From IMG/VR virus record IMGVR_UViG_3300025674_000181, positions 1 to 33,948 of that record: a stretch of DNA of 33,948 nucleotides; one strand, given 5' to 3'. Positions within the stretch are counted from its first letter, which is position 1. Each line of letters starts with the position of its first letter. The notes below the pieces were generated by a model that had not been told where the DNA came from, did no database searches, and worked only from the letters and a program-made list of their open reading frames with translations. This document shows, piece by piece, positions 6,401 to 25,531 of the stretch. A program made the translations under genes and the position numbers. This DNA comes from a virus.

Positions 6401-9400
6401 AAGTCTGGAGCTACAGCCACATCAAATAAACTAATTAAATTACTATTTCTTGGATCACTAAAATTTCCTGCTACATCAAATGCTCTTATATGGAACATAG
6501 CATTCGTTCCTATACCTAAAGGATTTCCATTTAAATCAGCAAAAGACCCTCTACTTGTATCTGCTTCATAAACGGTATGGGATGCATATTTACCTACAAC
6601 TTCTGTAAAGGAAGATCCTATTTTAGGTAATCTGTATTCGTTGTAACCCCCAGCCCCTTCTTCTCCTAAATTTGTATTTTCAAATTCTGGAACTTCTCCT
6701 CCTACCCATCCAGTATATAATCTAAATCCTATTAAATCTAACTCTCTATCTGGAGATTCATTTTCCCATCTAAAGCTTAAGTTATTCGGAAATAATGGGT
6801 TTAGAGATACATTAAAGTGGTCGGGTGGGTCGGGAGGTATTAAGTCAGGCTCTCCCCTGAAAAACATTACTTTTTCCTCTGATCTTCCAAAATCGTTAGC
6901 CTCAGACCATCTCAATTCGTAATAACCGTTTGAATCAGGGAGTTCAAATTCTCCAGATACCGCACCAGTTACTCTAGCTTCATATGCATCTGCATCAAAT
7001 ATTGCACAACCATCTATTGCTAAATCATCAAATTCAGATTCATATCTCGGGTGAGCAACTTCAAGAAATGGAGTAAATTTAGAATCTTTATAGTTTGGCA
7101 GACTAACTGTTAAATTATTACTTCCTCCAACTCTAGCTTTGTCTCGATCTGCACCCAAACTAAGATCCCATAAAATCTTATTTGATCCACATTTTTGTTT
7201 GAGACCAGGAACCTTCCATTCATTATTTTGTAATAAATTTGTATCATTGTTACCCATTTTTGTCACCACGAGACTTCTGTAGTACTCTTCAGTGATTCTT
7301 TGCACTCGCATGAAGTAATTTCCAAAATTTGTTACATCTGGATTATAGTAATCTTCATTCTCCTCTAAATTATGTATGAAGTAATTTGCTCTCGATCTAG
7401 TAACCCCTTCTGAATTTACATATCCAGTCGCAGCAATTATAACTTCAATAGTATTTTTTTCTGGAGCTCCTAAGTTTTGTACTTGAGTATTATCGTCGGG
7501 ATCGTCATCAAATTGAGGTAAAGGTCCACCTCCAGCTGATGGTCTATTTGCTGGAGTCGGGTCGTATGGAACTGTCCTGGCTGTATATATTGTTGATAAA
7601 GAGTCAGTTTGGCTAAATTTTTCCCTATTATATTCCATTGCAATCATAGAATATGTTCCATCCTGATTTTCTGTTTTACCTAACAATTGATATTCTTTAG
7701 AATCAAAAGCTTCTGTAGACCCATCAGCTTCTTCTCCATGCAATATATACAAGGCTCCTTCCTTTAGTTTAGTTGATACTGATTTTCTTTCATCTCCTCT
7801 AGGCATTCCAGCTAAAACATTTGTAGCAAGAAAATAATCATTGAATGTTTTGTATCCAGCTGAAGAACTTATAAAGCTTATTTCTTTTGGAATTCTTTGA
7901 ATTAAATCTTCGTTTTGATGAGTTAATATTTTAGTTCCAGATGTAGTTACTTCAAAATAATTGTTTAAATTTGTATTTGCAGATGTTTCTGAGTTTATTG
8001 GAATTATTTCAGCATCTCTTTGCCCTCCATCGGACGCACCTTGATGCTGTCCGTTTCTATGTATAAATTCAATATAATGTTCAGATTCATTTAGATTAAC
8101 ATCTTCATCAGGGATTAAAAAGCTTATGCTTGTGTATTTTTTTGTTAAATCTAATTTTTGATCTATAAAAACATAATTTTTACTAGGGGTAGGATTATCA
8201 TCGACCACTTCTAATACTCTCCCCCCTACTTTAAATCCATTTCTTAACTCATCATATATTGTAAAAATGTGCCCTGGTTCTATATGTTCTGCTTGACTGT
8301 CTGTTGTAAAACTTACAGTTTCTTCCTCGAGTACTGAAGTTAATAAAATCCACCTAGCAGTCCTTAATGCTTGATCTCGAGAAGTACAGCCGACAGCCGT
8401 TACTTCTTTTAGATTCCAGCCGTATCTTGTGATGCCTTCGGGATCTTCTACGTATTCGTATTTAGTTAAAAATGAATCTTCTTTATCCTTGTAAGCTACT
8501 TTTACAGCTGTAAATTTTGACTGCCTTGGAGCTCCTGCATAACTAAAATTTCCTTCTAATACAGAATCATTGCTGAATTTAAATATTGAATTTTTAAGAG
8601 CATTCATGGAGATAAAAATCTCCAAATTATTGAAATATGCTATACCTCTAAAAATCGAACAAATCTCATTTACAGTTTTGTATGCATCTGCTGGATTTTG
8701 AAGCAAAAGGTTGCAACTAAATCTCCGCTCTTTTTTAAATGAGTTGTCAACTGGTATTGATGTTGGAACTAGTTCGTCGCAATATTTGGCAATTTTAAAT
8801 AATTCCCATTTGTCTAAATTAACATCTCTTATGTATTCTCCTAAACCATAAATATCATTGGTCAATATATCGTACAAAATCCAAGCTGGATTATCGGTCC
8901 ATTCTAATTCTTCTTTAAATGTCCCATCCCAAACTCCTTCGTGTCTTTCTTCGCTTGTATGCGAACTACCCTTTGACCCATAACTACTTGTATATGCCCT
9001 TAAATTTGTTGGCCCTTTTTCATTCTCCAATTTTTCAACATAATTACTGGGAACCTTTACCCTTTTTAGTTTCATGTCAAAAGACCTAGTTGGAGCATTT
9101 CCAAAGTTCTCTGCATTAACTAATGATGCAATCATAGCAGAGCCTGGGTAATTAAAGTTCCTGTCTACTATTTCTGTAACTGAGTCAAGTGTTACTGAAA
9201 ATTTACTTTTAAAATTGTATGACTGAGCTGTTACATTTCTTATGTAAATCTGTCTTGGTCTAGGTCCAGAGAGATCTTTCGGGTCAATTAATTTCAACCA
9301 AATATCTTCTTTGTATTGAGATAAAGATAAGCCTTGAATATCAACAAGAACATTGTAGTCGTTTAACCCATCAGGTATAATTTCTTCGATCACGCCATCA

Positions 9401-10068
9401 TCTAGGCTTCGATGTGTAATGCCAGTTATGTCTCCCCATATCATAACTTTACCTTTATTGGGCTGTTGCTCTCCAGCTTTATCTATGGTGTAACATTGAT
9501 CTACATTTAATGTAACCCCAAGCCAGTCAACATCTTCATCCATTACTGAGTGTGTTGTTTGACTAGTTATTCTTTTTCCCTGGCCATCGTCATTCTCTTC
9601 TAGTTCAACTTGATTTCCTAACGGAACATTTTTTCCTATAGTTTGAGATGCATAAGAAAAATCTTCTAACCAATAAAAGTTGTCATCTTCAGTTTCTCCA
9701 CTTTCTCCCTGGTTGACATAAAAAGGAGTTTGATCTAGCTCTCCTCTTTTCCATGCTACTGATATATTTCTAAAATTATAAATTCCAGCTTGAGAGGTGT
9801 CTGATGTTGTTAATTGTACGGGTGTATCGTTTAGATAAATCCCCTTTAATATTCCAGCCCCCTGAACTAAACCTCCAGTTGCATCACAAAACCCTTCAAT
9901 TGGGCCTTCAGATACAACATCCAGCATTTTCATAAATGCTGTGGATTGTAGTTTTTCTTTATCTTCTTTAGATACAGCTAGAAATTTTCCACCAAAACCG
10001 TCTCCAGTTATTGTTCTTCTGAACAATCTGGGTGTAGTATTAGAAGCGTAACATACTAGGTTATACAT
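424..10068 (-). CDS. J: Giant gpJ-like central tail tip / host-specificity protein (3214 aa)
   Basis: This is the tail-tip hub and fibre that contacts the host surface, as lambda gpJ does. The N-terminal ~900 residues carry the gpJ pattern: an early segment AFMKMLDVVSEGPIEGF followed by GIYLNDTPVQ, and later the WILYDILTNDIYGLGEYI and NPADAYKTVNEICSIFRG blocks typical of J baseplate-hub domains. Residues ~1075-2150 hold five fibronectin-III-like units spaced about 240-260 residues. The C-terminal third has tandem fibre repeats with ISGxVDVGDGxRFGS and a distal domain rich in Gly, Thr and Asn. Lambda gpJ is about 1130 residues, so this one is nearly three times longer. It starts 7 bases after the I-like gene stop, in the same order as lambda (I then J). 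Receptor specificity probably lies in the last ~250 residues; that is inference. Confidence 0.93.
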   Translation of the reverse strand: MYNLVCYASNTTPRLFRRTITGDGFGGKFLAVSKEDKEKLQSTAFMKMLDVVSEGPIEGFCDATGGLVQGAGILKGIYLNDTPVQLTTSDTSQAGIYNFRNISVAWKRGELDQTPFYVNQGESGETEDDNFYWLEDFSYASQTIGKNVPLGNQVELEENDDGQGKRITSQTTHSVMDEDVDWLGVTLNVDQCYTIDKAGEQQPNKGKVMIWGDITGITHRSLDDGVIEEIIPDGLNDYNVLVDIQGLSLSQYKEDIWLKLIDPKDLSGPRPRQIYIRNVTAQSYNFKSKFSVTLDSVTEIVDRNFNYPGSAMIASLVNAENFGNAPTRSFDMKLKRVKVPSNYVEKLENEKGPTNLRAYTSSYGSKGSSHTSEERHEGVWDGTFKEELEWTDNPAWILYDILTNDIYGLGEYIRDVNLDKWELFKIAKYCDELVPTSIPVDNSFKKERRFSCNLLLQNPADAYKTVNEICSIFRGIAYFNNLEIFISMNALKNSIFKFSNDSVLEGNFSYAGAPRQSKFTAVKVAYKDKEDSFLTKYEYVEDPEGITRYGWNLKEVTAVGCTSRDQALRTARWILLTSVLEEETVSFTTDSQAEHIEPGHIFTIYDELRNGFKVGGRVLEVVDDNPTPSKNYVFIDQKLDLTKKYTSISFLIPDEDVNLNESEHYIEFIHRNGQHQGASDGGQRDAEIIPINSETSANTNLNNYFEVTTSGTKILTHQNEDLIQRIPKEISFISSSAGYKTFNDYFLATNVLAGMPRGDERKSVSTKLKEGALYILHGEEADGSTEAFDSKEYQLLGKTENQDGTYSMIAMEYNREKFSQTDSLSTIYTARTVPYDPTPANRPSAGGGPLPQFDDDPDDNTQVQNLGAPEKNTIEVIIAATGYVNSEGVTRSRANYFIHNLEENEDYYNPDVTNFGNYFMRVQRITEEYYRSLVVTKMGNNDTNLLQNNEWKVPGLKQKCGSNKILWDLSLGADRDKARVGGSNNLTVSLPNYKDSKFTPFLEVAHPRYESEFDDLAIDGCAIFDADAYEARVTGAVSGEFELPDSNGYYELRWSEANDFGRSEEKVMFFRGEPDLIPPDPPDHFNVSLNPLFPNNLSFRWENESPDRELDLIGFRLYTGWVGGEVPEFENTNLGEEGAGGYNEYRLPKIGSSFTEVVGKYASHTVYEADTSRGSFADLNGNPLGIGTNAMFHIRAFDVAGNFSDPRNSNLISLFDVAVAPDLYLSGEIREEGKGTDTYRQSPILHAFYSGQFHNDKSFKKYFLKINDETFGVSNHSINIFQEDIKTAPAQYEAGASGHLEIREVTANTEYFGKLSAFTSENRESLVATSTAKIGKDNFAPLKIKNFEIRKQFSDFEFSWDPPPEADCNRVLLYTGVGKDNFGEVTVDQNKIIEIAKNKNGLIASVNKDDRPVFPISRFDDVIQYKNAATTYPFHILPVDTSDNTGVYTDAEFKTVDMSPPVLHTSGTVNEAGQGLVHVFYSGVAQDDSTFQYYLTEYKDINSFDIKTFQGKDKAAYNDSDTYGGSGHFVFEANGNTFYDVKTRIVLSKNETDWATDTILSNEIYDVVSDHVYVPRDSKPPGKLERFRVSKEWSNFRFSWDEPKENDVVKVLLYTGIGKENFDFTVEEEQSTTKIEDLPIDYSSPFASVLPDDAPSFAIDKFNKPGSESYENTKWYFHALAVDSSNNTGMYVDTSFEYVNLDGPVVHTSGEITSDGRSVIHVFYSGQEQNDDSFRYYFTEYQNVEEMTLLGQRDSTKAFHNPGVLGEGSGHYIFEAKGDSYYEVRVKSVFDIFQSNWADDTILTNKYYDIKPGYEDYIYAAPDNIPPGTPTWISSQKNGNNIFLSWENPGDHDLEHIHLYTGTDIATVSEDEYSFSDQKKVAIHQSTIAISDIIPLKDFSANAGKKFYFWLQAEDTSNNKGKISERRLVDVGRTEALFRDEVRCTTGIINDDGGDGTSYAFINYLINDDPLNRQHLSYTIQLSKRPSFNPLIGTQEIPVQYSDDDDDLKVRYPGRNIGSGIFSNLEANQTYYLRARINEHDGKQSQWTLSYDNPIKTPKDSTLPKIPNNFNIISGPKQIFLEWDWDQGISKDTDSILVYKTGIPTGIVKEDSVEPTLANPNTNCWKMSHISGYFFNNPELYTYKLSASTSYIDNDVETGINGESIYYFYFLRTIDKSENLSKQFVSGISRDVHNYYPVNKAKTIFSNEANLAFGQTPHTQGYVTGGAISADYISNIYASRILTDRITAADFILSHPSGRVLSDNVFTRAVETPQYAYSIGKGVYLDHKMFRIGDPSPGGYGLFWTGHKEYSDSDFTKPTFSKDPDGFHAIDIDPNTLEIRGNLTAGTIEIGASRTSAFNVDSEGNLTIGNQTKEISGFFKGELGVSGVFGEKYEGYDYDDQYSSVFVQIETDHLTAIEKAAIRPGVYLETNWKRGPLYYGWEIAQVESFNQSNGILKLELPGLEYNGFDFYNLFGNAYGLSGVTTTGSRDWDSNNVPAVRDYWRIHDAKFKVTKDGSLFAADAKILGTAKADALEVGQTIVLGDTYNSYSSVIQSYNFDDDFNPCDPTEDARGWKIVGDGTAYFKSIDIRSGLLSGSMGLIIGNGCYDNAFFRVTSKGDISIGRSLVYHNNPFYVSREGNLFAQDAEFRGDLNISGRVDVGDGMRFGSHVTRDRFGRVISATDEDGILINRFGLQSTNFQHGSDKGFQLTQNGKAILHNLAVTGGWISGANLLIGRGSRDNPWFKAFSNGDISLGDYAGAKWTTNGSLSTAATAPSKNHPFFVSRKGTLKTKDAYIIGDVGISGNVDVGDGIRFGSRVNRDPYGNVTSVTKDTNGILINSSAMRSINYQSVWDGTTKSFYLGADGETILSDLVVRGGNISGVKMMIGKGTSSEPWLKVWDDGEISIGSYGYSNRNRAPKNTDPFYVDKQGSMWAQNAFVKGTITGRYGRVGSLIMDPDWLSTSHPDYDVPRTSNNLQTVAAGTHDAITNPYRVGWYINSEGHFSVVNEAGKLFGWAGENQYLTVTGLASSSKDNAIYETTRHPSNYDPPDPNTYGKGFLLQGEHMGGWISNFRTDPKSAWGIANQVITCIHGDIRLPVLNDLYTIISNSPIGYFVSGIYLETDVDNATVRFTKNDPQAAVPSILGPENKYGNFTATKAGYYTTLSNTNKIEPGANKDSYLVAKPTSVGSNTSIRFRIDLYRQGSYTKNTADASW
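1190..2300 (-). repeat. C-terminal fibre repeats in J (three copies, 130-150 residues each)
   Basis: A repeated set appears three times around residues 2600, 2733 and 2885: a pair [LM][LIM]IG[NRK]G followed within ten residues by [FL][FK][RKA]V or KA, then GDISIG, GDISLG or GEISIG, then NPFYVS, HPFFVS or DPFYVD. Two copies of ISG[RN]VDVGDG[MI]RFGS sit between them (near residues 2661 and 2810). The repeats look like trimeric beta-structured tail-fibre shaft segments. The copies are diverged enough at DNA level that they are old. Confidence 0.75.
3790..6840 (-). repeat. Protein-level super-repeat in J: FNIII-like unit plus a second beta module, about 245 residues per unit
   Basis: Five FNIII-like starts are visible near residues 1078, 1338, 1578, 1826 and 2062 (for example PPGKLERFRVSKEWSNFRFSW followed by LLYTG). 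Between them lies a second module, seen as LHAFYSGQFHNDKSFKKYF, VHVFYSGVAQDDSTFQYYL, IHVFYSGQEQNDDSFRYYF and a diverged FINYLINDDPLNRQHLSYT. Copies 2 and 3 are the closest pair (LLYTGVGKDNF and LLYTGIGKENF). FNIII domains are common in tailed-phage tip proteins and likely act as spacers or weak surface binders. Confidence 0.8.
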
Positions 10069-11175: not shown

Positions 11176-12090
11176 TTAAAACAATCTACTACCTGGAAAG
11201 CCTCCGTATGGTAAGAAGTCCGCATCTGGAAATCTTAATTTACATCCAGATATTTTTTTATTACAAGCATCCCTAGCCCAATACTCAGTATTTATTGATG
11301 GCTTGTTTTTTGAGCTAGATGTGTGAGCAACTATACAATAGTATACTACATTTCTTGGGCTACTTTCTATACCCTGATCGTCCACTTGAATAGTTACAAC
11401 ATCTTTTAATTTATAATCTACCCCAGCTTCCCAAAGCCCCTTGTTTGTGATTCCATCTATAACAAATCCTACATTATTAGAATCAGATATTGGCCCTCCA
11501 TTATAGCCGCATCCTTTACCTCTATATTTCCACCAGCAATAATTATTTAATATAACTCTTCTTGGAACTGAAACATTTTCAAAATCAAGAGCATTTGATA
11601 ATTCAAATTCTACAAAAAATTTATTTTCTGTAAGTTTTTGGTTAATTATCCACTTGTCTGGTCTCAATGTAGCATTTGGATCAGGATCTATACCCATAGA
11701 TTTCCAGTGATCTATGTCTGCATCATAGTTTAAAAAATTTTCTTTATCTAAAAATCTTACAAAAGTTTTAGTTCTAGTTATTTCGGCTTTAACCAAGTCG
11801 TCCTTGTCTTTTATATATCTTGATAATATGCCTTGAAAATTAATTAATTTAATTGTAGGTCTAGATAAGCCTCCGTCTGATCTTGTGCTAAGGTCAGAGA
11901 CCTCAAAAGGTAGATAAAAGTATTCCTTGTTATTGAACTTAAGGCTATCTGTTACATTAATTACCCCACCATGAAACCTGATTACATCTTCACTATTTCC
12001 AATTCTTGAAATTTCCCATAGATCAATCATTGAAGTTTGGTTGTTTGAAAAAATTTCTTGATTTATATGTTCTCCTTTATAAAATGCCAT
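11176..12090 (-). CDS. L: Minor tail protein L-like, probable Fe-S cluster protein
   Basis: A 304-residue tail-tip protein. The C-terminal part has the L-family cysteine arrangement: C185 in NNYCWWKYRGKGC, C194 in GKGCGYNGG, then C276 and C283 in ACNKKISGCKLRF, followed by the typical ending LPYGGFPG. Lambda gpL binds an iron-sulfur cluster through such cysteines, so the same is inferred here. The N-terminal half (VIRFHGGVINVTDSLKFNNKEYFYLPFEV) fits the beta-rich first domain. It sits between the M-like and K-like genes, matching lambda order. Confidence 0.9.
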   Translation of the reverse strand: MAFYKGEHINQEIFSNNQTSMIDLWEISRIGNSEDVIRFHGGVINVTDSLKFNNKEYFYLPFEVSDLSTRSDGGLSRPTIKLINFQGILSRYIKDKDDLVKAEITRTKTFVRFLDKENFLNYDADIDHWKSMGIDPDPNATLRPDKWIINQKLTENKFFVEFELSNALDFENVSVPRRVILNNYCWWKYRGKGCGYNGGPISDSNNVGFVIDGITNKGLWEAGVDYKLKDVVTIQVDDQGIESSPRNVVYYCIVAHTSSSKNKPSINTEYWARDACNKKISGCKLRFPDADFLPYGGFPGSRLF

Positions 12091-14833: not shown

Positions 14834-17800
14834 CTATCTCAATGTTCCACCAATTCTTTTTTCTCTAGCAATAACCTCCATTACCGCATTCTTTACTCTT
14901 GATGCAAATTCTGGAGTTGCTAAAGGATTATTTGATGAGTTTTCTGTTTTCGATCCAGAATCATTTACATTTATACTAATGTTAACGTCACCGTGGCTAA
15001 CTGTAGATGCTCCCGTGTTCGAATTGGCTTGTGCTGTAGGAGAAAAAGTTCCACTATTTATTTTGTCCATAGCTCCTGTGCCATAACTCTGCACAGCTTC
15101 TTTGCTCATCACATACTCACCACCTGTAAGTATTGAAGGGACGTTTCCTCCTGTATTAAAATTTATTCTATAATCGTCCTGACTTCCAGTGATTTTATGT
15201 TGGATGTTTTGTTGTCTTAAATATTTAGACTGTTGTGCAGCGGTCCACCCCTCTTTCTTGAAAGCCATTATATCTGACCTAATTCCTTTTCTCTCAATTG
15301 GATCTATTTGATAGCCTGTTCTGCCCCTATCAAAAGTGTAACTTTGATTTGAATCAAGTTGCCTATTTAGAGCTTTCGCTTGGTTCTTGTCATTTAGTTT
15401 CGACATGAATCCAGTTCCATTCAACCAATCCATTCCTTTGCTGATAGCAAAGCCTCCTAGAGCGGTTAAGGCTAATCTTTTCCAGACATTACGTTCTTGT
15501 TTCTTTTTATATTTTTTAACTTTTTCTCTATACTCTTCTTGCCTTCTTGTTTCTAGATCCTGTTGAAATTGGTTTTCTTGTTCCCTGAAAAATTCTTGTA
15601 TTTGCCTGTCATTACTGATAGCTTTAGCAGATAGGGATCGACTTATTCCTATTTCAGGTCTAGTTTCCTTGTATCTAGTTACAGAACCATAATCATTTTT
15701 GTCTTGATAACTCTCTCTTTTGGCAGCTTTTGGCCCTGCAATATTTAAATTAACACCTCCACCTTCATTGAACCCTTGGACCATTCCACTGTTAACACGA
15801 TTCATGAAGTTTACACCATACTTATCAACAGAGCTTTTCTTTATTACATATTCACCTCCAGTCAGCATCGCTGGTACATCATCTCTTACTCCACTTCCTC
15901 CAGTAACCACACCTCCAACATTAAACTTCTTTTCTCCCCCTGTTCCAAATAGACCTCCAGTTATATTTCCAATAGCTCCCGTTATTCTACTTGCTGCGCT
16001 CTGTAAAAATGCTTGCTGAACCATATTAAGAAGCTGTATTCCTACTCCCTTCATGGCATCACTAAAACTTTCTGCTCCACTAATTGCAGTTTGCATTGCA
16101 TCAGCCAGTCCATCTTTTAGGACCATTGGCATGTCTTGGCCAAGTCTTGCATAAATACCTTCAGCCTGCTGCTCTACGCCAGCAAAACCAACTTCTAAAC
16201 CCAAACTAAATTGCTGTGTAAATTCCTTTGCGAACCCTTTGTCTCTTGGAGTAGTTCTTTCCATTTGCAAAATTAAGTTCTGGTTTGTTTCATTAAGTTT
16301 TGCCAGTTCTGTTTGTAGTCTTTTTATTTCTTCAACATCTCTAGTCTCAGCACTTTCTTCGTCATGCAAATCGCTCTTCAGTTGGCTCATTAACTCAAGA
16401 TTTTTTGAGTAATTATCCATCATTCCAGGATCCCCCTTGTATTGCACTTGCTCTGACTGAAGTTTAGCTTCAGCTCTTTCTAAGCGAGTGGCAAAAGGGT
16501 TCATATCTAACATCTGAGATTGAATATCTGCCTGTCTATCATCTGTTGCAATTTGAAGAGCTGAAGAGGCTGCTGCAGCACGAACATCATATCGATCCAT
16601 ATTGGCTTGCCTGCTAGCGCTCTCTTGAGAAAGATCAGTAAATTTTAATGTTTTTGTAAAGTCTGTAACTCTCGCCTGAGCTTCAAGTTCTTGGAACTTC
16701 TTTTGCATATTTTCAGTTATAGCATTTTGTCCAAGTATATATTTCTCTAAAGAAATCTTTCTTTGTTCAGCTATCTCTGCAAATAATTCATCATTACCCT
16801 TGGCTTTTTCAAGTGCCTCCGAATAAAAATTCATTATTTCATCAACACTCCTTGCATTAGCTATAGCTAGGGAAACATCGCCAGATTGTTTTGTAAACTC
16901 TGTAGTCTTTACATCCTTGTTTGGATCAAGTTTCGACTTTGCTTGATCTTGCTGTGTAATGCTTGGTCCTTTTCCAGGCTCTTCGCCAGAACTAGTAGTT
17001 CTTTTTTGATTTGTAAGGATTTGCATTTCTTTCCTGATGTTTTCCTTTTCTTTTGTTACTTGTGCAAGCTTTGCCTTCTGAGCATCATTGGCTGATTTTG
17101 CCTTTGCAACTAATGCTTCTTGCTGTCTAATTCTTTCATCCAGACCAGCCTTCATATTTTCTTGAGTCTGCTTAGATTCTCTAGTTATCTCGTAAAATTT
17201 TGTTCCCCTATTCGACCCGCTTGTATATTGCATAATTTTATGCCCGCCCTTCTTGGCTGTGTTTACGTCTCTGTTAAACTTGAGATGTTTTCTTTCTGTA
17301 ACACTAGGGTTAGCAACAGGACCGAGGCCAGAAAGCCCACTTAATTCAGCATTAATTTTTTCAAATCTTTTTTGTTCTTCGTCAGCCATATCGCTCGTTA
17401 CTTTTTTAGCTCTTGTATAATCTAATGAGCCCCTATGCTTTCTTAATTTATTTAATCTCTCTACCTGTAAACTAACATTGTTTTCTGAGTTTTTAAGAGC
17501 CTTTTCTTCAGTTTTTTGTTCAACTATATGTTTTGATAATAATGTTCTTTTTGCATCGAGTTCTGGGCTATTTAAAGTAACCGCGCTTCCAGGATTTTGC
17601 CTTCCCACAGGGGATGCTGCAGGAACCCTTGGAGCAGTTTCTCTGCTCACTTCCGATGAAGTTTCTTTTCCACTACCAAGAGTTTTTTCTATAACTTCTC
17701 CGAGATTATTTAAAGAATTAATTAAATCTCTTTCTGATGCAAGTCTCAATGCCTCCTCCCTGACATTTTCTATAACTTCCGCTTGTCTAAATTTTAATTC

Positions 17801-20800
17801 TTCATCAAACTGGTCTTTTCTTAGTTTTTGCTGTCTGGATGCCTCTTGTTCGTCGTTTTTATAACCTCTAAATATTTCATTAGACTTGAATTGAAGTCTT
17901 GATGTAGTTACATCTTTATCTCCCGATGCCCTAGTCATTGCAACACCTCTATCTAAAGCGGCATTGTTTAGTTTTAAATTATTAACTTGTAGTTCTTGAT
18001 TTATTTTCTCAGTGATTGCGTTCTGTCTTAATGATAATTGCAAACTTTTTCTTTCCGCAAGTATTTGAGCTTCTAATATTTTTCCTTGAGTTTGTCTTTG
18101 TATTATAAGGTCTTTTATTACTTTTACTTCTTCTTCTTGAAGCTCTCTACCTCCAATCTCTAAATCATTTACTATAGTTTCTGCAAAAGACATCCCCTTA
18201 TCTTGAATTCCTTTTATTATCTGTTCTCTTTCTGTAGCATTAAAGTTAAGGTTTTTTTCATTAGCTTTAATTCCTTGTATCAACGATATATCACTTTCTT
18301 GCTGAAAGTTGATTCTTCTAAACCCTGCTTCTTTTTCGAATAAAGTTTCTTTTTTATCTGCCATATAATCCGAAGACTTTCTTCCTCCCATAAACTGAGC
18401 TGTATAATCTGCTACGGATCTTTCATAATTTAGTTCTGATTGTTGAGCTATTTTCTTTACCTCTAAATCTACAGTAAGTTTTGTTATCGCATCCTTAAAT
18501 GTTTTATTTAAATTAAAAATTTGACTAGCCATGGTTTCTGCATTAGTAGTCATTTCTTTAAACATTTTTAAAGATTCCGTGGCTTCATTGGCTATGTCTA
18601 GCATAGATATTTCGCCTTCTCTGAAGGCGGCAATCATTGCATCAACCACATTTTGGTCCATCACTCCTGTGGTTGCTAATTTTTGAAGCTCCTTTAATTC
18701 GTCCACACCCATAGTCGTGGCATCCTTAAGTTGATCTGAAGCCATCATTGTTTCAATTTCTCTACCAAGAGTTGTTCCAATAATTCCACCAACTGCTGTT
18801 GATAATCCCATTATCATTGCTCCTGGAATGGCTCCCACTCCTGTAGCCATCATGCCCATCCCCACTTTGGCTCCTATTCCGCCAATGGCAGCCCCAACAC
18901 CACCACCTATCATTGTGCCTCCACTGGTAAAACCTTGAGCTCTATTAGCTTTTTTTCTTAAAGCATTTAATTCACCAATGTCCATAAAATCAGACTTGGT
19001 TTTCATTTGAGCTACAGTAGCTTTAATTCCAGTAAGGGCATCTTCCACTTTATCCATTGTGGTTTCGCCAGACTGAACACGTTGCATCATCATTGAACCT
19101 AGAGCTACTCCAGATGCAGAAGCATCATTATTTCTAATTCCCATTGCGAAATTTTGTTGAGATGTAGCTATGGCCATTCTGTCTGCTAGTTGCTGTTCAA
19201 CCTTGCTCATGGCATTTTGATCTCCCATCGCATTGACGGTCTGTTTTAAAATTTGTTTATCGTTAATAGATGCAAGTGTTTGATTGATTTGAGCATCCAA
19301 TCTATTCAAATCCATTTGATTTCCACCACTAAATGCTTCAGCTCTTGCGTTTTGTAAATTTTGCAAACCACTTAAGGCAGATATGTTTTGACCTATCAAT
19401 GAAATTTCTTTTTCTTTTAATCTAACTTGCTCTTCGATAGATAAAGTTTGCTTTTTCATTGATTGTATAAATCCAGCCGCAGCTCCAACTAAAGCTCCAG
19501 TGGGCCCAAATATTGCACCCATACCAGCTCCCATGAGCACATTTGAGGCCGTATCCCTACCTCTATCCTGAACCTGAAACTGTCCGTTTTTCATGACAGC
19601 TCTATCTTCTCTGGATCTTGGGTTTTGAATCATGCCAGAAAGCATTGGAAGAATAAAAGAAAGCCCTAATCCTACATTACCTCCAAATCCTGTCATACCT
19701 GACTTCATGAATCCTTTAGCTCCTTGACGAATACCACCAAACATTCTGCCTGCACTATTAGCAGCTGCCGCCCTGAATCCAGCACCTCGCACATTCGAGC
19801 CAGCTAAACCAGAAGAAAACGATCCTCCTACAACTGAGCCTCCTGCTATTTTTGATTGAGCTGCCGCAACTCTTGCGGTTTGAGCGGTTTGCTGAGATGT
19901 TGCCTTTGCTTGCTCTCTTGTTGCTTGAACAACTCCTTGGAGCGCAGCGACATTCGCTGGACTTGATCCTATTTTTGTAGCTTGTTTCATTAAACTAGCA
20001 AATGCTGTTGAGGCACTTTTGCCTTGATTGGATTCAAATTTTTTAGTCATCTTTTCAAGACCTCGAAGAAAGACTCCTCCACCTTTACTGCCTTCAGTCA
20101 TTCTCCCAAAGTCTCCAGTCATTAATCCAGCTCTAGCTAAATATTTATTGGAAGAAGCCACTCCCTGATCTCTTAAGAACCCCTGAAATGAGCCTCTTCC
20201 TTCTTTGCTTTTCATTAAAGCAGCCATTATAGCATTAGCTTCTTGCTTATCCTGAAATTTAACATTTTGTTTTTTCAGAAATTCTTGCCCATAAAATCTT
20301 TCCATTGATTTTTTATTAAAACCATCTTGGCTAGAGAATTTCTCTATTCTTTTGTTCGTCAAGTTTTCTGATCTTATGCTAGACCGTACCGCTTTTGCAG
20401 TTGCTGCAGGCATGTTTCTGTCTGCCATAAATTTTTGATCCAACTGCCTGTCTAAATCTTTTAGTACTTTTAAAGTTTCTGTATCTCCACTAGCACGTGC
20501 CACAGACATTTGTTGAACTAAAGTTTTTTCAAATCCATCTTGACTACTTTGTAAATTCTTTACAAGTTCTCCTATTGGACCACCTTGCCCTGCTAGCGCA
20601 GCAGCTCCATCTGCCCTGATAGCTTGTCTTGCAAAATTCTGTCTATCTAGACTTTCGCCTCCAAGAGTTCCAAGCCTCATAGATTCTCTGATGTTAAATT
20701 CTTTAATGCTTCTTGCTGAACCCGCGTAAGACTTACTGTATTGATCTAGGAATTTCCTGCCTTCTTCGGTAGAGGCTGTGAATTTATCTATCGCTCTGGT

Positions 20801-23800
20801 TGACTCCATAAATGATCTTTGTATTTGATTTAAACCCTCTTTCCTGACTTCATTTTTTGCAGTCTGTATGAAATCTAATAATTCTCCACCAGAAACTTGC
20901 TTAGCGAAGTTTGGAACTTCCCCTGTTTTTTGGTTTGGATTTAATTTTCCTCCATGTAATTTTCTTGCTTTCTCTAAAGAGCCGCCTTCTTGTTCTTGAT
21001 TAACAACAGCTAGGCCTGGATTTTTCCCACTCTTAAGTTGTGGAGCTGAAACGACTTTGGGAGTGAATCCCATAGATTTCTCTCGCTCTATTGCTTCTGA
21101 TACAGCTCCAGAGAATTCGGGTTTGTCTTGTAATACACTTTCAGCTTTATCAGAAAATAATTTTGCAAAATTAGGAATCTTTCCTCGATTTGCCATTATT
21201 CTTCCTGCATATTCAGGATTACTGAATTGCATGTATGGCCTAGTTACATCTGGTTTTCCTAAAGCTTCTGATTGAGCTCTTAAATCTTTTTTTATTTCAG
21301 CTTGAGCTGATTCACTCAATCCCCTGAAGCTTTTGCTATTCAGAAATTGTCTTATATCTTCATAATTTCTCTCGCTCAGTTTTATACTATTTTCTTTTGT
21401 GCTCCAGAAGTTTTTGCCTCCCGCCCTACTATGAAACATTCCACTGTCTTGCTTGAAAGATTTTACTGCTTGAGAGAGAGTTTTCATTCTCCCGAATGCA
21501 AAGTTTGGAACTCCCCTTCTTCTGCCCAATGCTGTTCCAAACATTCTTTTGTATCTTGCCTTTCTTTCTTCTAATACATCTTCTACAATTTTATTTTTAC
21601 CAAATACTTCTGTCATGTATTTTGATTGACCGCTGGCTATTGAAGAAAGAGCGTTTTTGGGGCTCATAGCCCCTCCTTCTCGTGCGGGATCCAAGAGACT
21701 TTCAAATTCAGCAAAAATATTTTTAGGCATTATGTTTGTTCTAGCCATTTTTGATAATTGCCTCACATCATAATTCAGGAAACTTCTTCCAACAGATGGA
21801 ATCATTGATTTTTGATTTGTTGAAGTTTGATCCGCCATTCTTTGATCAAAAGCTATTCTATTTGTTAAGTCTTGACCCCTGAATCTTCCGCTAAATTCTC
21901 CAAAGTAACCTGGGCCAGTTAAGCCCATCCTCTCTCGAGAAGTTTTCCATTGCTGGGCGAATTGACCACCATGCATAGAACGAAGTATTGATTTAGAACT
22001 CCTGTTCTGTTCGTATGCCAATCTAGCCATGGTTTCTTTGGGCTTCTCTCCAATATTCGAGTATTTTTTCTCAAGATCTGTGGTTACTTCACTACCCACA
22101 ATGGATTGCCTGTTTTTGCTCTTCTTGACTGCTGTAAATTGTTTTTTAATTTCAGAGGTTACAAGTTCATTATCGCTGATTATATCTTTGAAGAATGTAT
22201 TTAAAATACCCGTTTTTTCACCCCCCTTTGTTCCAGCTGCATCTCTAAATTGAATAAATTGACCAGGCACAGTCCCCTGTATTCTGTCTGTTTTTCCAGT
22301 TAAGTACGCGAAAAATTCTCTTGGAGTTGCGCTTCTCAAGTCGTGAGCTATATTTGCTGCTGCATTAGGAAGGCCTTTCCTTACATTAATTTTACCAGAA
22401 GATCCTTTACTGCTGTAATAATCAAAATCAGCAGCAATTCCTGGGTCTTGCAGAATCGCATTTTTAACAGCCGTAAGCCCCTTATTATCTAAAAACTTTA
22501 AAGCATTTATAGCTTGACTGGGTCTACCCTCATACTCAATTAATCTATCTACACTTTTAATATATTTACTGTTTGCGGCCATCGCTTCTTCTGTACCAAT
22601 TCCTCTTTTGGTCTTTGCGTTTAATCCGCTTTCCACTGACCCCTCTAGCTTTTCTCTTCTACCAAGAGACATTATCTGAGGAGTATTTTTACTACTGTAT
22701 AATTGATCTATATAATCTTGTCCATATGGAGTTTGGGGTAAAGCAAAATTCGGGACATATCCTCTGTTTGAAAGTTTATATGTCCAATCGTCCGCTCCCC
22801 ACATTCCCTCTGGCTCAAGAGTATCTTTACTAAATTTTGAATTTTTATTTTTTAGTACATTAAAGCTTCCTTGCTTTGCGATACTATCTATTACTCTCAT
22901 TGCAGATAGAGAAGTAGACATATCTCCATAAAGCCCACTATAACCTCTTTTTCTTGCAAAAGACGCCATGTATTCATATAGCTTTCTTCCGTAACCCTTT
23001 CCGCGTAAAGTTTTATCTGCTTCTCCAGTGAAAACAACTTGCAGAGCCTTCTTGCCAGGTTTCATTGGATCATCAATTTCAACAGCTTGAGACTGAACAA
23101 ATTGTTTGTCTCCAACAAAAGATGAAAACTGAACTTGTTTTGGGGGACCAAACTCTCCTTGATCTCCTCCAAAAGTTTGTTTTTTAACTTGAAATCCAGC
23201 AAAATTTGGTATATGTCCTTGTGCTGCAATTGATGGATCAACTTTATACTTCTTTCCTTGAGAAACTACACTGCTTACATTTGATAAAATTAATCTTCTA
23301 TATGCGTCTGCACCTTCACCCTCAGATCCCACCCAGAGAGCTCGAGTTCCAGTAGCTTTATCCATTTCTCCATAACTAACATAATTACCTGGAGCGGGAG
23401 CTCCTTTTTTGTATTTATTGACCCCCCATCTGGCTTTTTGATATGTCATCATCTGGCCTTTCTTTGTGGTATAATCTATAGATTTAAAAAGACCACTGGT
23501 GAGAATATTATCTAGTGCTGATAAGCCTATTTTGCCGTCAAAAGATCTCTGTTCATTGACCGTACTTGCAAGTTTAGCTGCATTTGGATTTTTATTTGCC
23601 GAAGCTATTTTTCCTGCATTGATTTTTAGTGCATAATTAGGAATTGAACCTTGGTGCATATATGGATCAAATCCGTGAGCTTTTGCAAAATCTTTTTTGT
23701 ATTTTTTTCCAGCATCACTTTTTTGTGGTGGCATGATAGCTGGCTGGGATGATCCAACGAATTTTTTTACAGTTTCTGCTGTGTTGTAAACTACCCTACC

Positions 23801-25531
23801 CTCTCCAGGCATATTCATTGATTTGACGGCTCCTGGCTTGTAACCCCCTTCTAATGCACCCTTTTTTTCAGCTTCTTTTTCTTTATTGGATACATAATTA
23901 GGAACATGCCCCTCACTTTTCGTTTTCCTCAAATTAGCTCCAAACCCAGCCCTCGCTAATCCTGGTGATACTGCCGCTGCTGCAGCGGCAATTTTCGCCT
24001 GTTCTCTTGATTGAGCTTGAAGTATGGATAAAATAGTTCTTTCTTGAGCTGCTCTATTTCCCTCTTGTGATAGTATTCTTTTTTGAATTGCACTATTCTC
24101 ACCAAGAACTGCTACAATAGACTTTTGAATTTGACGTTGTTTTTCAGCTGCGGAAACTACACCAAGCAATTCTTTAACACTTCCTCCTAAGAACTTTACA
24201 GTTTTTAGAAAAAGTTTACTTAAAACAGCAAATGCAACAACTAAACCTGGTCCAGATAATACTTTGCCGAAACCTCGAACGAGACCTTGCGCAAGGTCTG
24301 AGCCCATACTTTCACCTTCTTCTTTACCCAAGAAATCACTAATTCCAGATATTTGATCTCTAATGAAAGTTAAGTAATCTCTTATGCTATCTGAAAAAGC
24401 TAAATTACCTATTACTTCAGACAATTCTTGTATACTTGTTGCGGTTTGAGCTGTTAATGCAGATAAAGATCTATTTAAAATTTCATTTTTCTTGTAGGCT
24501 TCATCTGTTGCTGTACTGGCTATTTTTGTAGCTCTTGCTAAAATACTATTTTGACTCGACAAATCCTTGATGGCTGCCTTTAGAATGTTGATTTGAAAAA
24601 CTCCACCTACTTGTTCGGCTACTGCAGCTTTTGTAGTATCAGCCAATCTTTCATATGTACTAGATAAATTTTCCAAAACTCTAATTGCTGGCAATGTGTT
24701 TCCTTCAACATCCCTGACTGCTATGCCTAATTCTTCTAATCTATTTAGCGTACTAGATCTTTGAACTCTGGTAAAGATTGTCTTAAAACTATTACCAATG
24801 ACTTTACCGCCTCTAGCCGTGGTTTGTTGAGCTGCCGTTACTGCACCTAATAGTTCGTCAAAGCTTACGCCAGCATCTTGAGCTACAGCACCTGCTCTAG
24901 ACACCGCATCTATCAAGTCTTCAGTGCTAACCGCAAACTGAACATCTACAGCAGCCATTTTACTTAATATTTTGGTTGAATCAAGACCCGCTTTGTTGAA
25001 AGTATTTAATGCTGCCGTCAAACCGTTAACCGCAGCTGCAGCATCTAGCCCTGTTAGTCTTGTTAATATAAGAGCATCATTTGTTCTTTTTAAAGTCTCT
25101 TCCATTGTGAGACCTTGTCGAGCGAGTTCAGTTGCCGCAGTAGCTACCGTATTAAAACTCTGAGCAGTATTTTTTGCTACTTTAAATAAGTTGCTACTGA
25201 ATTCATCTAGCTGCTTGTTCGTCAAGCCCATGACCACATTAATTTCAGTCATTTTTCTCTCTACTTCAATTGTGGTCTGAACTAGGGAAGCAAAAGCTTT
25301 CTGAACCCCCTGAATAATTCCTACTGATGCTCCAAATGCAATAACACGAGCATTAGAAGCTTCTAGTGATTTATTAAATTCACTAACTGAACCAGTAATT
25401 TTACCTAATGGTCTAGTAAAATTTTTGTCATTAATTGCAATGTTAAGACCGCCACGAGTGTTAACATTTTTAATGGCTTTACGAATAGACTCCTCGAGTC
25501 CAGTCTGAACTGTTGGTATTTTAATCGGCAT
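14834..25531 (-). CDS. H: Giant tail tape measure protein (3565 aa) with embedded modules
   Basis: This protein sets tail length and probably passes into the host envelope during DNA entry. Residues ~60-420 match the phage tape measure core (TEINVVMGLTNKQLDEFSSNL, ATELARQGLTMEETLKR, GLDAAAAVNGLTAALNTFNKAG, ARGGKVIGNSFKTIFTRVQR). A hydrophobic stretch follows near 430-450. Residues ~540-1545 hold seven G-x-[VI]-P-N-[FY]-[AV] motifs separating modules, one GNAT-like. Gly-rich hydrophobic segments lie near 1940-2010 and 2190-2260, followed by long Gln/Glu/Lys-rich coiled-coil regions. Two VPxxLTGGEYV motifs near residues 3215-3235 and 3465-3480 are typical of tape measure C-termini. At about 0.15 nm per residue the length implies a tail up to ~500 nm, less if the insert is globular. 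AAGGA at 25541-25545 supports the start. Confidence 0.95.
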   Translation of the reverse strand: MPIKIPTVQTGLEESIRKAIKNVNTRGGLNIAINDKNFTRPLGKITGSVSEFNKSLEASNARVIAFGASVGIIQGVQKAFASLVQTTIEVERKMTEINVVMGLTNKQLDEFSSNLFKVAKNTAQSFNTVATAATELARQGLTMEETLKRTNDALILTRLTGLDAAAAVNGLTAALNTFNKAGLDSTKILSKMAAVDVQFAVSTEDLIDAVSRAGAVAQDAGVSFDELLGAVTAAQQTTARGGKVIGNSFKTIFTRVQRSSTLNRLEELGIAVRDVEGNTLPAIRVLENLSSTYERLADTTKAAVAEQVGGVFQINILKAAIKDLSSQNSILARATKIASTATDEAYKKNEILNRSLSALTAQTATSIQELSEVIGNLAFSDSIRDYLTFIRDQISGISDFLGKEEGESMGSDLAQGLVRGFGKVLSGPGLVVAFAVLSKLFLKTVKFLGGSVKELLGVVSAAEKQRQIQKSIVAVLGENSAIQKRILSQEGNRAAQERTILSILQAQSREQAKIAAAAAAVSPGLARAGFGANLRKTKSEGHVPNYVSNKEKEAEKKGALEGGYKPGAVKSMNMPGEGRVVYNTAETVKKFVGSSQPAIMPPQKSDAGKKYKKDFAKAHGFDPYMHQGSIPNYALKINAGKIASANKNPNAAKLASTVNEQRSFDGKIGLSALDNILTSGLFKSIDYTTKKGQMMTYQKARWGVNKYKKGAPAPGNYVSYGEMDKATGTRALWVGSEGEGADAYRRLILSNVSSVVSQGKKYKVDPSIAAQGHIPNFAGFQVKKQTFGGDQGEFGPPKQVQFSSFVGDKQFVQSQAVEIDDPMKPGKKALQVVFTGEADKTLRGKGYGRKLYEYMASFARKRGYSGLYGDMSTSLSAMRVIDSIAKQGSFNVLKNKNSKFSKDTLEPEGMWGADDWTYKLSNRGYVPNFALPQTPYGQDYIDQLYSSKNTPQIMSLGRREKLEGSVESGLNAKTKRGIGTEEAMAANSKYIKSVDRLIEYEGRPSQAINALKFLDNKGLTAVKNAILQDPGIAADFDYYSSKGSSGKINVRKGLPNAAANIAHDLRSATPREFFAYLTGKTDRIQGTVPGQFIQFRDAAGTKGGEKTGILNTFFKDIISDNELVTSEIKKQFTAVKKSKNRQSIVGSEVTTDLEKKYSNIGEKPKETMARLAYEQNRSSKSILRSMHGGQFAQQWKTSRERMGLTGPGYFGEFSGRFRGQDLTNRIAFDQRMADQTSTNQKSMIPSVGRSFLNYDVRQLSKMARTNIMPKNIFAEFESLLDPAREGGAMSPKNALSSIASGQSKYMTEVFGKNKIVEDVLEERKARYKRMFGTALGRRRGVPNFAFGRMKTLSQAVKSFKQDSGMFHSRAGGKNFWSTKENSIKLSERNYEDIRQFLNSKSFRGLSESAQAEIKKDLRAQSEALGKPDVTRPYMQFSNPEYAGRIMANRGKIPNFAKLFSDKAESVLQDKPEFSGAVSEAIEREKSMGFTPKVVSAPQLKSGKNPGLAVVNQEQEGGSLEKARKLHGGKLNPNQKTGEVPNFAKQVSGGELLDFIQTAKNEVRKEGLNQIQRSFMESTRAIDKFTASTEEGRKFLDQYSKSYAGSARSIKEFNIRESMRLGTLGGESLDRQNFARQAIRADGAAALAGQGGPIGELVKNLQSSQDGFEKTLVQQMSVARASGDTETLKVLKDLDRQLDQKFMADRNMPAATAKAVRSSIRSENLTNKRIEKFSSQDGFNKKSMERFYGQEFLKKQNVKFQDKQEANAIMAALMKSKEGRGSFQGFLRDQGVASSNKYLARAGLMTGDFGRMTEGSKGGGVFLRGLEKMTKKFESNQGKSASTAFASLMKQATKIGSSPANVAALQGVVQATREQAKATSQQTAQTARVAAAQSKIAGGSVVGGSFSSGLAGSNVRGAGFRAAAANSAGRMFGGIRQGAKGFMKSGMTGFGGNVGLGLSFILPMLSGMIQNPRSREDRAVMKNGQFQVQDRGRDTASNVLMGAGMGAIFGPTGALVGAAAGFIQSMKKQTLSIEEQVRLKEKEISLIGQNISALSGLQNLQNARAEAFSGGNQMDLNRLDAQINQTLASINDKQILKQTVNAMGDQNAMSKVEQQLADRMAIATSQQNFAMGIRNNDASASGVALGSMMMQRVQSGETTMDKVEDALTGIKATVAQMKTKSDFMDIGELNALRKKANRAQGFTSGGTMIGGGVGAAIGGIGAKVGMGMMATGVGAIPGAMIMGLSTAVGGIIGTTLGREIETMMASDQLKDATTMGVDELKELQKLATTGVMDQNVVDAMIAAFREGEISMLDIANEATESLKMFKEMTTNAETMASQIFNLNKTFKDAITKLTVDLEVKKIAQQSELNYERSVADYTAQFMGGRKSSDYMADKKETLFEKEAGFRRINFQQESDISLIQGIKANEKNLNFNATEREQIIKGIQDKGMSFAETIVNDLEIGGRELQEEEVKVIKDLIIQRQTQGKILEAQILAERKSLQLSLRQNAITEKINQELQVNNLKLNNAALDRGVAMTRASGDKDVTTSRLQFKSNEIFRGYKNDEQEASRQQKLRKDQFDEELKFRQAEVIENVREEALRLASERDLINSLNNLGEVIEKTLGSGKETSSEVSRETAPRVPAASPVGRQNPGSAVTLNSPELDAKRTLLSKHIVEQKTEEKALKNSENNVSLQVERLNKLRKHRGSLDYTRAKKVTSDMADEEQKRFEKINAELSGLSGLGPVANPSVTERKHLKFNRDVNTAKKGGHKIMQYTSGSNRGTKFYEITRESKQTQENMKAGLDERIRQQEALVAKAKSANDAQKAKLAQVTKEKENIRKEMQILTNQKRTTSSGEEPGKGPSITQQDQAKSKLDPNKDVKTTEFTKQSGDVSLAIANARSVDEIMNFYSEALEKAKGNDELFAEIAEQRKISLEKYILGQNAITENMQKKFQELEAQARVTDFTKTLKFTDLSQESASRQANMDRYDVRAAAASSALQIATDDRQADIQSQMLDMNPFATRLERAEAKLQSEQVQYKGDPGMMDNYSKNLELMSQLKSDLHDEESAETRDVEEIKRLQTELAKLNETNQNLILQMERTTPRDKGFAKEFTQQFSLGLEVGFAGVEQQAEGIYARLGQDMPMVLKDGLADAMQTAISGAESFSDAMKGVGIQLLNMVQQAFLQSAASRITGAIGNITGGLFGTGGEKKFNVGGVVTGGSGVRDDVPAMLTGGEYVIKKSSVDKYGVNFMNRVNSGMVQGFNEGGGVNLNIAGPKAAKRESYQDKNDYGSVTRYKETRPEIGISRSLSAKAISNDRQIQEFFREQENQFQQDLETRRQEEYREKVKKYKKKQERNVWKRLALTALGGFAISKGMDWLNGTGFMSKLNDKNQAKALNRQLDSNQSYTFDRGRTGYQIDPIERKGIRSDIMAFKKEGWTAAQQSKYLRQQNIQHKITGSQDDYRINFNTGGNVPSILTGGEYVMSKEAVQSYGTGAMDKINSGTFSPTAQANSNTGASTVSHGDVNISINVNDSGSKTENSSNNPLATPEFASRVKNAVMEVIAREKRIGGTLR
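20903..23911 (-). repeat. Seven dispersed G-x-[VI]-P-N-[FY]-[AV] motifs in the tape measure insert
   Basis: Copies end at residues 547 (GHVPNYV), 634 (GSIPNYA), 778 (GHIPNFA), 930 (GYVPNFA), 1345 (RGVPNFA), 1456 (GKIPNFA) and 1543 (GEVPNFA). Spacing varies from 87 to 415 residues, so the motif punctuates different modules rather than marking a tandem repeat. Stretches between copies have distinct composition; for example, the segment before copy 2 contains QPAIMPPQKS and HGFDPY, and the one before copy 7 contains AVSEAIEREKSMGFTPKVV and NPGLAVVNQEQEG. Possible roles are a structural clasp, a docking site on the tube or chaperone, or a processing site. Confidence 0.85.
22817..23179 (-). other. 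GNAT N-acetyltransferase-like module inside the tape measure
   Basis: Residues ~785-905 lie between PNFA motifs 3 and 4. They carry the GNAT acetyl-CoA binding signature R-x-x-G-x-G at R843, G846 and G848 (LRGKGYGRKLYEYMASFARK), preceded by a beta strand (ALQVVFTGEAD) and followed by a strand and helix (GYSGLYGDMSTSLSAMRVIDSIAKQGSF) in the positions expected for GNAT motifs A and B. The size matches a compact GNAT fold. Activity and substrate are unknown. Confidence 0.72.

Follow-up and report, generated by a model that had tools for sequence, protein, structure and literature searches.

Tape measure proteins of phage tails are regarded as rulers and channels. The protein addressed here is encoded on the minus strand of the window, i.e. 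the whole 33,948-nucleotide stretch of viral DNA that was analysed (IMG/VR virus record IMGVR_UViG_3300025674_000181, positions 1 to 33,948). Comparison with its relatives indicates that this tape measure carries, between a conserved core and a long C-terminal part, a string of modules exchangeable at one short protein motif, which suggests that the tail ruler also serves to deliver a string of host-takeover tools.

The closest described systems are tape measures with embedded cell-wall enzymes, which, like that of the window, include enzyme domains inside the tape measure. The tape measure of Bacillus phage Stills has annotated LysM and lysozyme domains and that of SPbeta, YomI, is called a transglycosylase in some records; the core of such tape measures is about 23–31% identical to that of the window's clade, among the matches listed. 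However, unlike the window protein, the tape measures of SPbeta (YomI), Stills, fJoAci04, Lumi and LC76P1 are devoid of the PNF motif; furthermore, the enzymes named in known tape measures act on peptidoglycan, and no exchangeable string is reported there in the portions of this literature at hand. A motif in the tape measure of TM4 was reportedly described by Piuri and Hatfull in 2006.

Other described systems share some of these features. According to extracts of the sources, tape measures exit from the tail and function at the inner membrane (PMC13190303, PMC13277306). Polyvalent proteins, as presented in excerpts of Iyer et al. 2017 (PMC5512222), gather several domains in one long polypeptide, are predicted to be injected with the DNA and include RimI-like GNATs. 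They resemble the window string by their long multidomain polypeptide and these RimI-like GNATs, injection being in the present case a proposal, but they are described as packaged in the head and no shared joint motif appears in these excerpts, whose text on polyvalent proteins uses the words 'tape measure' and 'linker' 0 times. Sle1, a tape-measure-related effector of a Streptomyces contractile system, likewise displays a tape-measure-like carrier and a variable functional domain that can be swapped; it differs, in the available part of the paper, by the C-terminal position of this domain, by belonging to a bacterial contractile system and by having no punctuated string (PMC13277306). Finally, the accessible part of a survey of phage proteins reports ongoing fragment shuffling but no genuine recent mosaicism confirmed in tape measures (PMC10684548), unlike the present data, in which recent tape measure exchange is mapped at the nucleotide level. 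The carrier family, the fold of module E (see below) and the idea of injected multidomain proteins are already known. What appears to be new, going by the literature searched, is a tape measure whose modules exchange at one conserved protein tag: neither a description of the motif nor such a tape measure was found among the papers listed from the open-licence PMC literature.

The tape measure of the window and its seven motifs

The 3565-amino acid (aa) protein, encoded by a 10.7 kb gene, carries a PF10145 (PhageMin_Tail) domain at residues 118–310 (4.5e-26; 92.4 bits vs a curated cut-off of 33.2), and its best PHROG match is tail length tape measure protein (1.4e-53). An earlier sequence-only reading of the window had reported seven motifs ending at residues 547, 634, 778, 930, 1345, 1456 and 1543, all of which were retrieved there; the pattern that it gave, G-x-[VI]-P-N-[FY]-[AV], describes six of them, the motif ending at residue 1345 being G-V-P-N-F-A, without x. 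Seven copies largely exceed what is obtained from 5000 shuffles of the same protein (mean 0.001, maximum 1), and PN[FYWH] has 0 occurrences elsewhere in the 3565 residues. Upstream of a C-terminal part of about 2000 aa, the region following the conserved 545-aa core is split by the motifs into six modules. The low values of the predicted local distance difference test (pLDDT) given below come from a structure model presented further on.

14834..25531, minus strand: tape measure protein gene, 3565 aa
23894..25531, minus strand: conserved N-terminal core, residues 1–546, 75–82% identity to 8 near relatives
24188..24262, minus strand: hydrophobic segment at the core end, residues 424–448, possibly membrane-spanning (Kyte-Doolittle)
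23891..23911, minus strand: motif 1, GHVPNYV, residues 541–547
23633..23893, minus strand: module B, first anchor, 87 aa, directly after the core in 13/13 near tape measures
23630..23650, minus strand: motif 2, GSIPNYA, residues 628–634, pLDDT <50
23201..23632, minus strand: module C, 144 aa, predicted folded domain whose place in the string differs between relatives
23198..23218, minus strand: motif 3, GHIPNFA, residues 772–778, linker pLDDT <50
22745..23200, minus strand: module E, 152 aa, GNAT acetyltransferase fold in a predicted model, match to RimI 2cnm_A
22988..23005, minus strand: RGKGYG, acetyl-CoA binding signature, residues 843–848; R, G, G, Y and G invariant in an 8-sequence alignment including the window
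22742..22762, minus strand: motif 4, GYVPNFA, residues 924–930, pLDDT <50
21500..22744, minus strand: module D, 415 aa, loosely related to segments of 250–502 aa in relatives
21497..21514, minus strand: motif 5, GVPNFA, without x, residues 1340–1345
21167..21499, minus strand: module J, 111 aa, in 3/13 near tape measures, window counted
21164..21184, minus strand: motif 6, GKIPNFA, residues 1450–1456
20906..21166, minus strand: module F, last anchor, 87 aa, final module in 9/9 near tape measures reaching that point
20903..20923, minus strand: motif 7, GEVPNFA, residues 1537–1543
14837..20905, minus strand: C-terminal part, 2023 aa, presumed ruler, hardly varying in length among 9 near tape measures

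Module content and order in near relatives

A scan of viral contigs with window residues 1–1600 gave 23 matched stretches corresponding to 14 distinct loci, and a second scan with a core alignment added L021, L022, L023 and L026 (L029 was also found and left out; the other rows were repeats). The 13 tape measures compared, i.e. the window and 12 others, exclude the near duplicates L007, L011, L014 and L015, the near-identical L002 and also L012, which was replaced by its longer copy L013. Contig ends truncate four of the loci (L008, L021, L022 and L023), and the first 35 residues are missing from L009.

The core and the first anchor (87 aa; 93 in L023) are common to all 13 proteins, and the last anchor (84–88 aa) and the C-terminal part to all nine that reach them. 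Between these, the order, the content and the copy number of the modules all differ. The window has B-C-E-D-J-F; L003, B-H-K-L-D-C-M-N-F; L004, B-E-D-C-J-F; L005, B-D-C-E-F; L006, B-H-K-D-C-E-F; L010, B-S-C-D-F; L013, B-I-D-C-E-F; L026, B-H-C-D-E-M-F; and L022, cut by its contig end, B-H-I-C-D-E-L-K-I-C, with I-C present twice. Module D, the loosest family (18–33% identity to the window), may be a join of different N-terminal parts. The reordering is independent of it, since modules C and E are well conserved (38–65% and 50–73% identity to the window, respectively) and C-E in the window contrasts with E before C in L004. These sequence comparisons indicate that motif-delimited modules are gained, lost, duplicated and reordered among relatives. 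The proposal that the modules are joined by a shared punctuation motif is thus supported by module order in the 13 tape measures and, as this order varies, the region does not behave as one conserved fold devoid of swapping.

Of the two I-C pairs of L022 (L022:12284-13054 and L022:15833-16615), the I copies appear almost identical, unlike the C copies. A possible homology between the first and the last anchor was considered and rejected (hhalign probability 9%, only the motif-bearing end being aligned).

Homology breaks and recent transfers

Because circularity had to be avoided, cassettes were aligned unsplit (window, L003, L004, L005, L006, L008, L009, L010, L013, L022, L026, L178 and L200). 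Homology ends at 10 aa or less from a motif end for 515 of the 768 internal ends, vs 97.6 on average and 122 at most when the motif positions are shuffled 500 times. The same holds for 175 cassettes, near duplicates included (11,791 of 21,410 ends near a motif; shuffled mean 2,877.8, maximum 3,055), and for the near clade after masking of the motif residues (586/788 ends; mean 138.1, maximum 176), this masked test using slightly wider, one-sided distance limits.

Candidates for recent transfer were defined as pairs of non-anchor modules with a module identity of at least 78% that exceeds core identity by at least 8 points. Among the matches listed, nine module pairs qualify, three of which correspond to one exchange (L215, L216, L217); the DNA around the joints was compared gap-free for six of the nine. 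Several of these transfers break sharply at the motifs. In L250/L256, which share a 127-aa module (92.9% identity vs 64.0% for the core), DNA identity is 0.17–0.30 beyond the 30-nucleotide (nt) bin of the upstream motif and 0.90–0.97 just inside; the other edge displays no break, because the next module is also common to both. In L216/L230 (100-aa module, 98.0% vs 84.7% for the core), it goes from 0.13–0.33 upstream of the motif bin to 0.93–1.00 just inside, and the last anchor then follows in both. Breaks at the 3' motif are found in L006/L022 (module 89.1% vs core 73.8%) and L006/L026 (81.6% vs 73.0%), with identities of 0.63–0.97 inside and 0.13–0.50 outside, an indel spoiling the inner 5' bins. 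The GNAT module of L005/L013 (94.7% vs 78.3% for the core) points to a transfer without sharp edge, since the upstream neighbour module is the same and the low downstream values reflect an indel. A sharp edge was also looked for in the gap-free DNA comparison of L076/L144 and none was seen.

Taken together, module order in 13 tape measures, homology breaks at motifs and DNA breakpoints support the view that the motif is the joint at which modules are exchanged. The recombination-tolerant joint suspected from the window sequence therefore gains support.

Conservation and exclusivity of the motif

The linker consensus at the joints is A[AS]xG[FYLH][IV]PN[FY]A. At the free positions of 671 unique contexts, A or S is found at −5 in 77%, F/Y/L/H at −2 in 92% and A at +3 in 64%. 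As this logo is partly circular, the pattern having required G or S, V/I/L/M, PN and F/Y, it was redone from bare PN. In 62 distinct tape measures found by their core, G at −3, I/V at −1 and F/Y at +2 occur together in 305 of the 419 PN contexts within cassettes (the last strict motif being taken as the cassette end), vs 0/96 outside cassettes in the same proteins.

The motif is also exclusive to the tape measure. Indeed, G-x-[IV]-P-N-[FY]-A has 51 matches in 18 of 20 contigs (2.24 Mb), each of the 51 falling in the sole tape measure gene of its contig, whose reversed-pattern control gave 0. Finally, 35 of 66 deduplicated tape measures have two or more internal copies (125 copies), and copies within one tape measure agree at −2 and −1 beyond any of 1000 permutations. 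This agreement fits one common reader of the tag.

Nature of the modules

The sequence-only reading had also held that at least one segment looks like an enzyme domain, and residues 779–929 indeed adopt a GNAT fold in a predicted model. An AlphaFold2 model of residues 626–945 (16 rows; mean pLDDT 70.9) displays two folded regions, module C (about 38–143 in model numbering) and module E (153–298); motifs 2, 3 and 4 lie in stretches of pLDDT <50, between the module C and GNAT domains. Domain boundaries thus fall at motifs in the one window stretch modelled. Module E aligns with RimI 2cnm_A (VIA-align; Z 10.6, root-mean-square deviation 2.9, 121 aligned, model 154–304 corresponding to residues 779–929), so that the GNAT fold fills the interval between motifs 3 and 4. 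With Foldseek, ranks 1–3 are N-acetyltransferases, as are rows 1–4 of the structure matches, which also list isocitrate lyase 2 of Mycobacterium tuberculosis and an acyl-homoserine lactone (AHL) synthase. The acetyl-CoA loop signature of GNATs is R/Q-x-x-G-x-G/A, with which RGKGYG (residues 843–848) agrees. As the GNAT Pfam score is below the cut-off (13.6 bits vs 20.7 for the window protein; 19.0 in L005), module E is filed as a GNAT fold and not as a Pfam-confirmed member. With modules C and H and an anchor/family-1/anchor stretch, it was also compared with PDB sequence profiles, which gave only weak GNAT matches for E.

In relatives, a Pfam scan with curated cut-offs of 43 cassettes or part-cassettes retained an SNase in L156 (1.9e-8), GNATs in L118 and L103 (one at 4.9e-7, the other at 2.1e-4) and HIGH_NTase1_ass, an NTase-associated domain, in L105 (1.5e-7); HATPase (L082) and GNAT (L121, L047) are just below the cut-off. 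According to their coordinates, all seven matches are each included in one inter-motif segment. The relatives' cassettes with a match above the cut-off have one enzyme type each, and one enzyme fold is identified in the window.

More broadly, 147 proteins provided 475 internal segments, of which 398 are non-redundant and form 37 multi-member and 49 single families by sequence linkage, some short segments being perhaps linked through the motif alone. In a model of L266 from the core end to the ruler start (40 rows; pLDDT 57.9, 165/473 residues <50), the motifs again fall in stretches of pLDDT <50, which carries little weight since low confidence is widespread. Family 1, the commonest non-anchor module, displays by eye an E..D..K conservation pattern, from which it might be guessed to be a PD-(D/E)XK nuclease. 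Visual inspection of relatives also brought out patterns reminiscent of catalytic sites (HAD-like DWDGT, P-loop GPAGTGKT, HEASH), which are leads only, with no Pfam match above the cut-off. The module at L008:16205-16765 has a near-threshold PGDYG match (3e-5, 24.7 vs 27 bits).

Distribution of the architecture

The motif leads back to tape measures even when it is the only query. A first motif-only DNA scan gave 31 stretches, 24 of which have an open reading frame (ORF) holding two or more motifs, and a second one gave at least 120 stretches, 116 of them new loci (some contigs being again near relatives of the window). Among these 116, an ORF reaching 800 aa is present in 98, two or more motifs in 100 and three or more in 83, and 5 have no such ORF. 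Motif-bearing ORFs reaching 300 aa number 134. The 5' end is intact in 61 of them, of which 59 start with the tape measure core and the two others carry one motif each; the core is still visible in 30 of the 73 that are cut in 5'.

Conversely, a scan based on core similarity alone gave at least 600 stretches including at least 574 relatives, of which the best 80 were kept (about 62 being distinct and some repeating near relatives). The strict pattern G(x)[VIL]PN[FY] is found two or more times in 79 of these 80 and three or more times in 77, figures limited to this clade because these are the best 80 of 574 against a query built from motif-bearing proteins; those with a complete 3' end (n=63) comprise 62 and 60, respectively. 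A looser pattern gives 80/80 with two or more. Nearly all of the related tape measures kept from this clade therefore carry the motif.

A scan of genome contigs gave 12 relatives: five with motifs, two cut short, one without motif (L184) and four distant ones (24–27% identity) without motif. The five motif-bearing contigs are metagenome-assembled genome (MAG) contigs assigned to Neomarinimicrobiota, Halobacteriovorax (two), Flavobacteriales and Verrucomicrobiales, assignments in which binning may err. No motif was found in the tape measures of five distant named phages (SPbeta, fJoAci04, Lumi, Stills and LC76P1), so that the motif is present in 0/9 distantly related tape measures. In INPHARED, three tape measure queries gave core matches only, no record being covered to 80%, and three module queries (tblastn) gave no match, the motif region having been read in these five named phages only. 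Stand-alone relatives of the modules were sought among 10,373 non-motif ORFs (60–700 aa) of the loci, and the one match is a truncated tape measure, L181. Globally, these sequence data indicate that the motif-punctuated architecture is conserved in a clade of uncultured phages.

Proposed delivery of a cargo cassette

The explanation that we favour, and consider reasonably probable, is that the tape measure is a chassis carrying exchangeable modules delivered with the genome. The chassis would consist of the core, of two constant anchors that bracket the variable modules and of the C-terminal ruler. The modules would fold independently, be carried in the tail and be delivered with the genome, enzymes such as GNAT and SNase then acting on host targets. 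Less surely, the motif would be read in trans by one partner, which could be a protease releasing the modules one by one or else an assembly factor bound to every linker; reading by one partner in trans would allow a module ending in the motif to work in many slots. Injection of the modules is plausible: GNATs need acetyl-CoA, and their natural place of action is therefore a cytoplasm.

Lengths are consistent with this explanation. Across nine near tape measures, cassette length ranges between 680 and 1525 aa (standard deviation 277), vs 2023–2187 aa (standard deviation 53) for the C-terminal part, which implies that added modules are not offset by a shorter C-terminal part. From this, we infer that the C-terminal part is the ruler and the cassette a passenger.

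Several observations weigh against the cargo explanation or narrow it. In the wider clade, cassette and C-terminal lengths rise together in 30 complete tape measures (Spearman 0.59) and are thus not independent everywhere. A Pfam domain above the cut-off is found in only 4/43 cassettes or part-cassettes, so that the term 'effectors' of the sequence-only reading holds for a minority of modules. No Pfam domain passes the cut-off in 20 single modules, and family 1 has no fold match worth reporting (best Z 3.5 in the L266 model of pLDDT 57.9). Low confidence in the window model extends beyond the motifs, pLDDT being <50 also at the start of module C (model 18–22 and 25–36). The agreement between motif copies of one protein is weaker at +2, where it is reached in 37 of 1000 permutations, and could derive instead from shared ancestry or composition. 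Besides the clade limit on the motif counts, L257 (core 54%) has 0 motifs by the strict pattern and two doubtful ones by the looser pattern, and in L184 (core 47%) the ORF is 462 aa long, none of the + frames of its 6252-base contig containing a motif; L184 may be a split gene, an error or a true exception.

Possible functions of the motif

The motif could be a protease site, the polyprotein being cleaved at each joint on the C-terminal side of the aromatic residue, either prior to ejection or in its course, and the modules then acting separately. The tape measures of lambda and T5 are cleaved. The location of the motifs in low-confidence linkers, the lineage-matched variants within a protein and the small residue that often follows F/Y (A 64%, S 9% in the 671 contexts; A 47%, S 11% for the corresponding residue when any PN of the cassettes is counted) would suit such a site. 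However, the pattern is in no other gene of the 20 contigs, cuts at every joint would part the core from the ruler, and an HK97-type prohead protease is found in 0/20 contigs, which may be incomplete, other proteases not having been sought. Cleavage is a possible function, although a somewhat improbable one. A broader version, in which the clade uses the tape measure as a programmable effector polyprotein and a dedicated activity reads the PNFA tag and releases the modules during genome entry, is put forward tentatively and appears rather unlikely; if true, the tail ruler would be a plug-in delivery system carrying any protein that ends in the tag.

Alternatively, an assembly factor, be it a tail chaperone or the tube lumen, could dock at the motif, its binding between modules being required for a long cargo to stay soluble and threadable. 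The motif is the same at the joints regardless of the modules, is exclusive to the tape measure, is hydrophobic, aromatic and strongly constrained around PN, and its variants agree within one protein, as expected from such a site. Yet its spacing is irregular, the decile cut-points of segment length going from 71 to 293 aa, which implies no fixed register with the tube lattice, and nine distant tape measures manage without it. This function is rather doubtful.

It is unlikely that the motif is a mere rigid turn or hinge that tolerates insertions, the modules being inactive structural spacers of the tail interior. Most modules have no known family match and the joints sit between folded domains, as this would predict. 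But a turn would hardly need the same residues, yet 305/419 PN contexts of cassettes keep G, I/V and F/Y vs 0/96 elsewhere; moreover, some modules are GNAT, SNase or NTase-associated domains and, among near relatives, length is maintained in the C-terminal part but not in the cassette.

Lastly, a DNA-level recombination site or repeat directing module shuffling, suggested by the breaks at the motif and by a synonymous codon agreement between copies above expectation for P (0.475 vs 0.370), I (0.538 vs 0.429) and V (0.548 vs 0.351), is highly improbable, since codons of N (0.633 observed vs 0.646 expected), G (0.334 vs 0.325) and A (0.339 vs 0.339) agree only as codon usage predicts, which indicates that the motif is held mainly as protein and not as a DNA repeat, since identity at the L250/L256 and L216/L230 junctions is no more than 57% in the 30-nt bin where the motif lies, and since neither of the two tandem repeats found in the window covers the motifs.

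Implications for phage biology

Module exchange in a tape measure, with one protein tag at the joints, becomes visible here at nucleotide resolution. Should the modules be delivered, unannotated proteins of early host takeover or anti-defence would be present, at a recognisable position, in scores of environmental phages and probably in hundreds by extrapolation from the at least 574 core relatives. The tag would also give a starting point for loading phage tails with chosen cargo. Delivery of enzymes into the cytoplasm by tape measures thus becomes a question testable with few mutants.

Genomic context and additional observations

Residues 424–448, located between the PhageMin_Tail domain and motif 1, are the only stretch with a 19-residue Kyte-Doolittle mean >1.6 and may, from their composition, cross a membrane. 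The tape measure gene adjoins distal tail genes:

11176..12090, minus strand: minor tail protein L (PF05100, 9.8e-41), context
424..10068, minus strand: central tail fibre J-like protein, 3214 aa (phrog_31, 2.6e-121), context

This gene content, with the tape measure upstream of minor tail protein L and of the J-like protein, points to a phage with a long non-contractile tail. The three genes upstream of the tape measure (window 25628-27409, 27497-28357 and 28354-29007) have no Pfam or PHROG match at E 0.01, and window 33269-33904 has a weak match to phage cement proteins (7.4e-4, below the cut-off). The tape measure gene is nearly identical to its counterpart on another contig of 80,288 bases. 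As a lead to the host, L178, whose tape measure core is 80% identical to that of the window, is a contig from a Candidatus Neomarinimicrobiota MAG.

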